This document shows, one piece after another, positions 7,150 to 13,595 of a DNA stretch of 13,654 nt. A program made the position numbers and the translations under genes. Numbering within the stretch: position 1 is the first letter of the stretch; each line of letters begins with the position of its first letter. The stretch is from contig DJIP01000061.1 of NCBI GenBank assembly GCA_002433675.1, positions 1 through 13,654 on the forward strand, written 5' to 3'. This stretch comes from Halomonas halophila (GTDB lineage Bacteria; Pseudomonadota; Gammaproteobacteria; Pseudomonadales; Halomonadaceae). The notes beneath the pieces were generated by a model that did no database searches, was not told the DNA's origin, and worked only from the letters and a program-made list of their open reading frames with translations.

Positions 7150-7185
7150 CAAAAACAGCGCCCCCACCTTGCGGCGGGGGCGCTG
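7150..7185 (-). terminator. Intrinsic terminator of the oadGAB operon
   Basis: On the minus strand a 10-bp perfect stem (CAGCGCCCCC pairing with GGGGGCGCTG, 7156-7185) encloses a 10-base loop and is followed by TTTTTG. This is a strong rho-independent terminator. It lies about 400 bases after the oadB stop, so the repeat array between them is transcribed as a long 3' untranslated region. Confidence 0.9.
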
Positions 7186-7224: not shown

Positions 7225-7289
7225 CTACCGAGTCTTGATCACCATCCCGGGACCATCATGCCGGGTACTTGATCATCACCCCGGGACCA
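7225..7289 (-). repeat. Two short degenerate copies (4 and 5) of the oadB tail
   Basis: Two units of 34 and 31 bases (7256-7289 and 7225-7255) follow the third full copy. In oadB direction they read DGPG-VMIKYPA-stop and DGPG-MVIKTR-stop. Both retain the GTGATGATCAAG-like core and a stop codon but have lost the upstream part. Unlike the full copies they carry amino-acid changes, as expected for the oldest or most decayed members furthest from the gene. The shared ATGGTCCCGGG between them shows they arose by local tandem duplication. Confidence 0.8.
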
Positions 7290-7391
7290 TCATCCCAGGT
7301 ACTTGATCATCACCCCGGCGGCTACCGCCGAGCCGATAACGCCGGCGGACGCCTGTGGCTCATAGGAAGCGGCCCCAGGGCCCGGATGACC
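7290..7391 (-). repeat. Displaced oadB 3'-end copy 3 (102-base unit)
   Basis: Bases 7290-7346 encode, in oadB direction, [18 protein letters not shown] and a TGA stop, identical in protein to the last 18 residues of OadB. Relative to the gene it differs at synonymous positions only (Ala423 GCC, Ala429 GCG, Val430 GTA, Gly440 GGA) plus a different stop. A 45-base spacer (7347-7391) contains CTATGAGCCACAGGCG, shared with the other units. Confidence 0.95.
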
Positions 7392-7479
7392 CTAGCCCAG
7401 GTACTTGATCATCACCCCGGCGGCGACAGCCGAACCGATGACGCCTGTGGCTCATAGGGAGCGGGCCCATCGCCCAAGC
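7392..7479 (-). repeat. Displaced oadB 3'-end copy 2 (88-base unit)
   Basis: Bases 7392-7445 encode [17 protein letters not shown] and a TAG stop. Differences from the gene are synonymous (Val425 GTC, Gly427 GGT, Ala429 GCT, Val430 GTC). The unit is shorter than its neighbours because the match starts one codon later, directly after the conserved CTATGAGCCACAGG of the spacer, and because the spacer differs near the stop. It is not in frame with the neighbouring units. Confidence 0.95.
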
Positions 7480-7581
7480 TTAGCCCAGGTACTTGATCAT
7501 CACCCCGGCGGCCACTGCCGAGCCGATGACACCAGCGGACGCCTGTGGCTCATAGGGAGCGGCCCCATCGCTCGGATGCCC
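7480..7581 (-). repeat. Displaced oadB 3'-end copy 1 (102-base unit)
   Basis: Bases 7480-7536 encode [18 protein letters not shown] and TAA. Only Ala423 (GCT), Gly424 (GGT) and Val425 (GTC) use different codons from the gene. The spacer 7537-7581 includes CTATGAGCCACAGGCG, and close to the gene stop GCGATGGGGCC, the same 11 bases that encode the AMGP stretch of OadB. The 102-base period keeps this copy in frame with the oadB stop: stop-codon readthrough would add 33 residues that end in a second tail. Confidence 0.95.
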
Positions 7582-8904
7582 TTAGCCCAGGTACTTGATC
7601 ATCACCCCGGCGGCCACTGCCGAGCCGATAACGCCCGCAACATTGGGCCCCATCGCGTGCATCAGCAGGAAGTTGTGGGGATTGGACTCGAGCCCCACCT
7701 TGTTGGACACCCGCGCCGCCATGGGCACCGCCGAGACACCGGCGGAGCCGATCAGTGGATTGATCGGATGCTTGCTGATGAGGTTGAGCAGCTTGGCCAT
7801 CAGCACACCGCAGGCGGTGCCGATGGCAAAGGCCACCATGCCGAGCCCAAGGATGCCCAGGGTTTCCACCGCCAGGAAGCGGTCGGCCATCAGCTTGGAG
7901 CCCACCGACAGCCCGAGGAAGATGGTCACGATGTTGATCAGGGCGTTCTGCGCCGTGTCCGAGAGCCGTTCGACCACCCCGCACTCGCGCATCAGGTTGC
8001 CAAAGCAGAACATCCCGAGCAGTGGCGCCGCATCCGGCAGGAACAACACCACCAGGATCAGCAGTGCCAGCGGAAACACGATCTTCTCGAGCTTCGACAC
8101 CGGGCGCAGCTGGGTCATGGCGATGCTGCGCTCCTTCTGGGTGGTCAACGCCTTCATGATTGGTGGCTGGATCAGCGGCACCAGAGCCATATAGGAGTAG
8201 GACGCCACCGCGATGGCACCCAGCAGCTCGGGGGCCAGAATGCTCGAGACATAGATCGAGGTCGGGCCGTCGGCACCACCGATGATGCCGATGGCCGCAG
8301 CCTGGTTGAGGCTGAAGTCCATCCACCCCATGGCGGTCATGCCCACCGCCCCGATCAGGGTGGCGAAGATGCCGAACTGGGCGGCGGCACCGAGGAACAG
8401 GGTGCGCGGGTTGGCCAGCAGCGGACCGAAATCGGTCATCGCGCCGACCCCCATGAAGATCACCAGCGGCGCGATACCGGAGGCGATGGCCACACTGTAG
8501 AACTGATACAGCATGCCATGGGAATAGCCCCCATCCATGGCCAGGTCATTGGCGGTGCGAAGCAGCGCCGGCGAGATATCGCCGTGCAGCGTCTCGCTGA
8601 TGGCGTAGCGCCAGGTATCCACATCGGCGCCCGCCGGCAGGCTGGTGCCTAGCGCCTGGGCCATCTGCGCCAGCAGCTCGGGGCGGCCCAGGTGGGCCGC
8701 CTGCTCCGCCGCCGACAGCGCCAGCCCTGCCTCGGGGATATTGGCCAGGATGCCGCCGAAGCCGATCGGCACCAGCAACAGCGGTTCGAACTTCTTGGCG
8801 ATGGCCAGCCACAAGAGCAGCAGGCCCACCACCAGCATCACCGCCTGGCCCAGGGTCAGGTTGTACAGCCCGGAGCCGTACCATAGGGTCAGAATCTTCT
8901 CCAT
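7582..8904 (-). CDS. oadB: Na+-pumping oxaloacetate decarboxylase beta subunit
   Basis: OadB is the membrane subunit that decarboxylates carboxybiotin on OadA and couples this to Na+ export. The 440 residues are strongly hydrophobic, with family motifs [13 protein letters not shown] (48-60), [13 protein letters not shown] (156-168), [15 protein letters not shown] (207-221, containing Asp212, the counterpart of the essential Asp203 of the Klebsiella protein) and [20 protein letters not shown] (385-404). The ATG at 8902-8904 follows the oadA stop by 9 bases, with AAGGAC overlapping that stop as ribosome site. The start and length agree with other gammaproteobacterial OadB. The last 18 codons (7582-7638) are the proximal member of the 3'-end repeat array. 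Confidence 0.97.
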
Positions 8905-13350: not shown

Positions 13351-13398
13351 GTCAGGAAAGTAGTCAGGAAAGCAGTCAGGAAAGGAGTCAGGAAACAG
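13351..13398. repeat. Minisatellite, four 12-bp units
   Basis: Four consecutive 12-base units, gtcaggaaagta, gtcaggaaagca, gtcaggaaagga and gtcaggaaacag, differ at only one to three positions. The last unit overlaps the beginning of the larger repeated module. The same core (caggaaac) recurs at 13481, 13575 and 13587. The copy number probably varies between strains. Confidence 0.95.
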
Positions 13399-13401
13399 CA
13401 T

Positions 13402-13430
13402 AAAAGGGCGCCCATCCTTCGACAGGCGCC
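13402..13430 (-). terminator. Intrinsic terminator, distal module
   Basis: On the minus strand GGCGCC (13425-13430) pairs with GGCGCC (13407-13412), followed by CTTTTA. The stem is 6 bp with a 12-base loop and the T-tract is short (four T), so this is the weaker of the two copies. Confidence 0.65.
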
Positions 13431-13493
13431 TAAACGATCGCAACCGGCAGTAATCGCCAGCCGGTCGGCACGAAACTTGGCAGGAAACAGCAT

Positions 13494-13524
13494 AAAAAAA
13501 GACGCCCATCCTTCGACAGGCGCC
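13494..13524 (-). terminator. Intrinsic terminator, proximal module
   Basis: On the minus strand GGCGCC (13519-13524) pairs with GGCGTC (13501-13506, one G-T pair), followed directly by seven T. It is the same hairpin as in the distal module but with a longer T-tract. Confidence 0.75.
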
Positions 13525-13595
13525 TAAACGATCGCAACCGGCAGTAATCGCCAGCCGGTCAGCACGAAACTTGACAGGAAACTTGGCAGGAAACA

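Follow-up and report, generated by a model that had tools for sequence, protein, structure and literature searches.

At pilE/pilS of Neisseria, a single expressed locus is accompanied by partial silent copies, and gene conversion from these copies changes the protein. Islander covers islands in tRNA and tmRNA genes and rejects candidates under 2 kb (PMC4383910). Mycobacterial MIRUs are described as units of 40–100 bp scattered over 41 places (PMC2734929). No description of oadB ends or of gene-end arrays was found in the titles and abstract openings of the open-licence papers surveyed. Here we analyze a window of 13,654 nt, which is contig C26 of the draft genome G000 (4.28 Mb, 400 contigs, 87% complete, 2.9% contamination) and in which the 3′ end of oadB is followed by displaced copies of itself. 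From the earlier note on this DNA and from general knowledge, we take oadB to encode the beta subunit of a sodium-pumping oxaloacetate decarboxylase.

Layout of the array at the 3′ end of oadB

The earlier note reported three full copies and two decayed ones downstream of the oadB end, with TAA, TAA, TAG and TGA as the stops of the gene and the three copies, and the coordinates confirm this (Table 1); the three copies are coding-clean. The copies had been given as the last 17–18 codons plus stop, which holds for copies 1 and 3 (native from Ala423, 18 codons), while copy 2 is native from codon 426 only (15 codons). Copy 2 is without 10 nt (CGCTGGTGTC), and the letters that seem to form its Gly424 and Val425 are GGCGTC of the spacer; its codons 424–425 are therefore not comparable.

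Table 1 Features of the oadB end and of the downstream array in the window.
Feature	Position	Strand	Remarks
oadB, 440 aa	7582..8904	-	ORF; stop TAA (7582–7584); homolog in 88 of 90 genomes of the genus
Current working end of oadB, codons 423–440	7585..7638	-	more derived than gene body
Spacer 1, 45 nt	7537..7581	-	between oadB stop and copy 1
Copy 1, codons 423–440 and stop TAA (7480–7482)	7480..7536	-	
Spacer 2, 40 nt	7440..7479	-	
Copy 2, codons 426–440 and stop TAG (7392–7394)	7392..7439	-	10-nt deletion at left edge
Spacer 3, 45 nt	7347..7391	-	
Copy 3 (distal), codons 423–440 and stop TGA (7290–7292)	7290..7346	-	
Two older decayed copies inside 34-bp tandem	7225..7289	-	
Terminator-like hairpin and T run, 3′ of array	7151..7185	-	inverted repeat I3 and sequence

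TRF reported the oadB array as one array (7294–7635, period 102, 3.5 copies, score 463) and, separately, a 34-bp tandem at 7234–7318 that contains the decayed copies. The oadB array consists of head-to-tail direct repeats of tens of bp, as in minisatellites or VNTRs. A 23-nt spacer core occurs three times with 0–1 mismatches, and the mean number of occurrences in 200 shuffles was 0.00. Since the spacers themselves are repeated, the repeat unit is the tail, the stop and the spacer together rather than the tail alone. The sequence GCGATGGGGCC is present in spacer 1 and also in codons 417–420 of oadB. Remnants of the decayed copies were recognized by eye in G044 as well, and these copies are probably older than the split between G000 and G044. 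The array would belong to the 3′ untranslated region of the transcript. A search of RNA families gave six matches, none of which reached the gathering score, and the RNA fold of the array had a z value of −3.0, of which the repeats may be the cause. The window carries a second tandem array at 13389–13582 (period 94, 2.1 copies, 94% matches), with similar DNA in G044; the gene downstream of it is presumably DUF1989-like.

Silent differences among the oadB tails

Between codons 424 and 440, six codons vary among oadB and its copies, all at the third position, with a minimum of 8 changes. The claim of the earlier note that these residues vary silently stands (8:0), with copy 2 comparable only from codon 426. 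The chance that 8 of 8 random changes would be synonymous is 4e-5 to 8e-5. There are no amino-acid changes among the tails, and the C/T differences at codons 424, 425 and 427 do not follow the adenine variation of diversity-generating retroelements.

The oadB end in the closest species

Among the genomes compared, G044 is the closest species, and its OadB differs by one amino acid. Its oadB locus has a DNA identity of ~93–94% around the locus, shares the flanks and has no array. The right half of copy 3, from codon 427 to the stop, is identical to the working oadB end of G044 (0 differences, stop included) and to no other among the 62 distinct native tails compared. The old end has therefore been displaced, and the present end is the newer one. 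This order, with the ancestral end outward and the newer end proximal at oadB, is also that of elements integrated at 3′ ends.

The divergence of the present end is in line with this. Of the last 24 codons of oadB, 8 differ between G000 and G044, and of the 417 preceding ones 33 (Fisher P = 0.0007), for which a scan over all positions gives only 0.06. When polarized with five outgroup species, the nine differing codons from 417 on were G000-derived in four cases, G044-derived in two and unclear in three, and the differing codons of the gene body were G000-derived in 12 cases, G044-derived in 13 and unclear in seven. The excess of G000-derived codons at the end (4/25 vs 12/416) has a P value of 0.009, and the corresponding value for G044-derived codons is 0.21. 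Both the identity of copy 3 with the G044 end and the derived excess support the proposal of the earlier note that each tail diverged during its time as the working end, before its displacement. It had also called for genomes in which the pattern of a copy is the working end: G044 is such a case for the right half of copy 3 but, among the 62 distinct tails, no other genome has the pattern of copy 1, of copy 2 or of the G000 gene end. Copies 1 and 3 are mosaics: the left half of copy 1 is as in the G044 gene and its right half as in the present G000 gene, and the left half of copy 3 is like the G000 gene while its right half is the G044 end. Such halves may reflect recombination within the tail, since crossovers there give this kind of shuffling.

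Displaced and swapped ends at glcF

A second case was found at a gene that we take to be glcF. With GlcF of G044 as the query, there was a match in 90 of 90 genomes of the genus (E ≤ 0.001); 16 loci were kept and scanned, and nine were read in detail. The nine comprise four single ends (G045, G046, G002 and G042) and five with displaced copies (G044, G000, G030, G029 and G055). The scan also flagged displaced copies in G020, and antisense frames only in G087. GlcF of G045 ends in EALVRQSQSA, whereas that of G044 ends in EALG and is followed by four displaced copies. The outermost of these reads EALVRQAQSA and stop, and continues into DNA like that 3′ of the G045 gene; in G000, the outermost glcF copy is a remnant of the native end. 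The sequence GATGAAGCGCTGGGC is the working glcF end in G044 and displaced in G000, and GATGAGGCCCTTGGC is the working end in G000 and displaced in G044. Copy number differs between the two species at both genes (G000 vs G044: three vs no full copies at oadB, two vs four copies at glcF).

Gene-end arrays in G000, G044 and other genomes

The oadB array belongs to a set of gene-end tandem arrays enriched in G000 and G044. The sequence screened with TRF amounted to 389 kb for G000, including the window, 800 kb for G044 and another 800 kb for three relatives combined (G038, G010 and G192), and arrays with a period of 40 or more and a score of 120 or more were counted. Arrays straddling a stop codon numbered six in G000, ten in G044 and one in the three relatives, and none of the three sets had an array at a start codon only. 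One array in G044 touched both a start and a stop (0 in G000 and the relatives). Arrays inside an ORF numbered three, five and one, and intergenic ones zero, one and zero, respectively. Thirteen arrays were found in 80 named loci, many of them gammaproteobacterial (1.44 Mb): one at a stop, six at starts, three intergenic, two inside ORFs and one at both. The prevalence of start-straddling over stop-straddling arrays in these 80 loci (6 vs 1) is the opposite of that in G000 and G044. The stop-to-start ratio was 16:0 in G000 and G044 (1.19 Mb) and 2:6 in the controls (2.24 Mb; P = 0.0002), and 12:0 (P = 0.0007) after removal of the window, which was found first, and of the doubtful ORFs (L120, L181 and the second L174 array); the stretches behind these ratios were non-random, namely G000 contigs taken by number, two large contigs of G044 and 80 loci centered on oad genes.

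A scan for ORFs whose last 36 nt recur in the 500 nt that follow found 6 among 316 in G000 and 8 among 700 in G044, against none among 666 in the three relatives and none among 1214 in the 80 loci. Four of these 14 ORFs have doubtful frames (L120, plus-strand L143, plus-strand L163 and L190); without them the counts are 10/1016 vs 0/1880 (P = 3e-5) and, also without the window and L181, 8/1015 (P = 2e-4). Each of the pairs L117/L188 and L144/L190 represents one gene in both G000 and G044, so its members are not independent. A mirror scan, looking for copied gene starts, showed no difference (2/1016 in G000 and G044, 2/1880 in the controls). As copied starts are not scarcer in G000 and G044, the 3′ preference rests on the TRF counts and on the excess of end copies. 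Loss of mutS was considered as a cause and rejected, as mutS is present in nine of the nine genomes asked (the G000 copy runs off its contig).

The array at L163 10886–11297 (G044) consists of head-to-tail gene-end copies with 100% matches (period 107, 3.9 copies), indicating very recent amplification or strong homogenization. The arrays at L117 5471–5761 (G000) and L188 6299–6699 (G044) are orthologous and lie at a transporter-like gene; their displaced copies share a variant block that the gene lacks, and a nonsense change is present in two of the G044 copies. At L101 (G199), roughly the last five codons of oadB are repeated in tandem after the gene, in short copies of about 15 bp each.

Codon variants over all arrays

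The first 14 arrays tallied yielded 50 synonymous codon variants and 20 replacement ones, and the arrays added later (L117, L188, L181, L190 and L120) gave 9 and 10; L157 and L175 have no copy long enough, and the second L174 array and glcF of G087 stand outside the tally. The total of 59 synonymous to 30 replacement variants compares with ~30:70 under neutrality (P about 2e-12), where the counts are not independent of each other and the neutral model takes 70% of changes as replacements. The synonymous lean is carried by oadB (7:0 in this count), L143 (8:1), L164 (3:0), and glcF of G044 (11:1) and G030 (4:1). Several arrays look neutral or mixed, namely the lysis-like L112 (2:5), L174 (2:3), glcF of G000 (5:4), glcD (0:1), L181 (5:4), L188 (0:2) and L120 (1:2).

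Spacer sequences

In six of eight arrays, the spacer aligned with the coding sequence immediately upstream of the copied tail better than shuffles did, by short matches and at uncorrected P < 0.05. These are oadB (P = 0.03), glcF of G044 (0.02), G000 (0.045) and G030 (0.0005), glcD (0 of 2000 shuffles) and L143 (P = 0.0015); three of the six are glcF, and the oadB match rests on 11 nt. The spacers of L117 and L163 had no significant match to upstream coding sequence (P = 0.15 and 0.16). When the spacer origin was sought in the G044 locus and in the window with the array masked, scores stayed within those of shuffles; the shorter directed comparison matched upstream coding sequence. From these alignments we take the unit to be a duplicated last stretch of the gene, of which the front half would have decayed and the terminal half stayed coding-clean. 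A decayed front and a clean end inside one unit speak against plain youth and against plain neglect.

Search for integrative elements

The exact oadB end pattern, which would miss an attR shorter than nine codons, was present in 192 of 275 genomes of the family, with four matches in G000, two in five genomes and one in the remainder. Among the five, G002, G005 and G074 carry a second oadB, as perhaps do G050 and G132, in which both matches lie at contig edges. Weak extra tail matches occurred in G014, G048, G059 and G060; those in G014, G048 and G060 were rejected, as they read by eye like an unrelated membrane-protein coding motif. The spacer core was absent from the other 274 family genomes (as a 26-mer with up to three mismatches) and, as an exact 19-mer, from viral contigs and genome contigs. 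The unit occurs at one place in G000 and the spacer core only there, without MIRU-like dispersal. The end pattern had no match in viral contigs. A phage or plasmid source of the spacer was rejected, as among the matches listed there were only oadB-like or weak partial ones (3 phage and 26 plasmid records).

The earlier note had attributed the array to repeated integration of elements and pointed to relatives with an integrase between a tail and its copy as evidence to look for. In 75 distinct regions downstream of oadB (up to 1.5 kb), none was recognized: 45 regions had one of two syntenic genes and, in the other 30, the longest ORF read by eye included one transposase-like gene and no integrase. 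Tyrosine-integrase domain matches numbered five in G000 and nine in G044, and none lay on the contig of the window.

Origin of the array

We consider it reasonably probable that the array is a gene-end minisatellite, in which gene ends are duplicated in tandem, working and displaced ends exchange and ends from different lineages are mixed. About the last 25–30 codons of oadB would have been tandemly duplicated across the stop codon; only the first copy, attached to the gene, is read, and oadB thereby remains intact. The upstream half of a displaced unit would no longer be read and would decay into spacer. The terminal half could still be exchanged with the gene's own end through recombination in the tail (unequal crossing-over or conversion), so that a displaced end originates from the working position and may move back to it. 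Recombination at oadB between arrays or ends of diverged lineages, a step that we deduce from the sequences, would then leave a stack of ends that had accumulated synonymous changes while working in different genomes, the ancestral one lying farthest out. The earlier note had offered foreign oadB alleles and tail exchange with a silent reservoir as alternatives; these fit better than elements, and probably both act.

Under clonal evolution in place, a tandem duplication would be followed by divergence of the gene end and its copies inside one lineage. This is simple, the copies at L163 are indeed identical and some arrays are near-neutral. However, the working position has room for one copy at a time, so that silent copies would account for no less than about half of the divergence within one lineage, and about 54% replacements would be expected. 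The 30 of 89 observed over all arrays tallied (P = 1e-4, again for non-independent counts and 70% replacements under neutrality) and the absence of replacements beside 8 silent changes at oadB (P = 0.002) make clonal evolution improbable, and the latter value again favors divergence as working ends before displacement. The simplest way out of the synonymous lean is mixing of ends that diverged in different genomes, and its rival is selection on the spare ends. Displaced ends could be kept coding directly, either because frequent contraction makes bad spare ends harmful (a recombination load) or through another use, and at oadB, glcF of G044 and L143 the displaced ends have stayed clean next to a decayed spacer within the unit. 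Yet frequent contraction should homogenize the copies, whereas 6 of 17 third positions differ, and several arrays do decay; we regard such selection as rather unlikely.

Under serial integration, elements carrying an oadB end in their attP would have entered the 3′ end of oadB on three occasions; each would have brought a new end and later been reduced to about 45 bp. The geometry fits, as oadB is intact and the ancestral right half lies distal to a proximal new end, and the left flanks of the copies are alike, as attP arms would be. On the other side, the array contains no integrase or element body but gaps of 40–45 nt only, three separate losses would need to leave almost identical remnants of 40–45 nt, G000 is the only one of the 275 family genomes with more than two matches to the exact end pattern, the spacer core was found nowhere else in the genomes and viral contigs searched and like structures occur at other, unrelated genes. 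We therefore set repeated integration aside as very improbable. The draft state of G000 (400 contigs, 87% completeness) makes assembly error possible, and the contamination of 2.9% would allow for mixed strains. An artefact of this kind is nevertheless highly unlikely: no exact repeat in the array is longer than about 50 nt, the junctions between spacer and tail must exist somewhere, and G044, which is 100% complete and has contigs of up to 1 Mb, has arrays of like kind and shares junctions at glcF and L117/L188.

As for gene-end minisatellites more generally, it is conceivable, if doubtful, that a dedicated or strongly biased process of this lineage duplicates and exchanges gene 3′ ends genome-wide, that many genes consequently bear a small stack of ends which once worked there or came from elsewhere, and that the stacks swap ends between species independently of the gene bodies. 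If gene-end duplication and exchange operate as proposed, gene 3′ ends would turn over as tandem-repeat units and the spare copies would record formerly working alleles, providing a natural record of recombination between species. New C-termini would also be explained, such as the change from EALVRQAQSA to EALG in GlcF, and the question would arise of what makes tandem duplication favor stop over start codons in one lineage.

Comparison with known systems

Like pilE/pilS, oadB is an expressed locus with partial silent copies able to exchange with it; unlike there, the protein end of OadB stays unchanged. In the tRNA/tmRNA islands of Islander, as at oadB, the gene is intact and its original end lies beyond it as a displaced 3′ fragment (PMC4383910). 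In those islands, however, the island and its integrase lie between gene and fragment, whereas the gaps at oadB are 40–45 nt without an integrase, and the gene-end repeats described here occur at several protein genes rather than at tRNA or tmRNA genes (PMC4383910). With bacterial minisatellites and MIRU-VNTR loci, the arrays share a position near genes, tandem units measuring from tens of bp to about a hundred, and a copy number that varies between related genomes (PMC2734929). Unlike MIRUs, each array consists of the end of its own gene and straddles the stop codon, and the copies at oadB differ from one another at silent sites only (PMC2734929).
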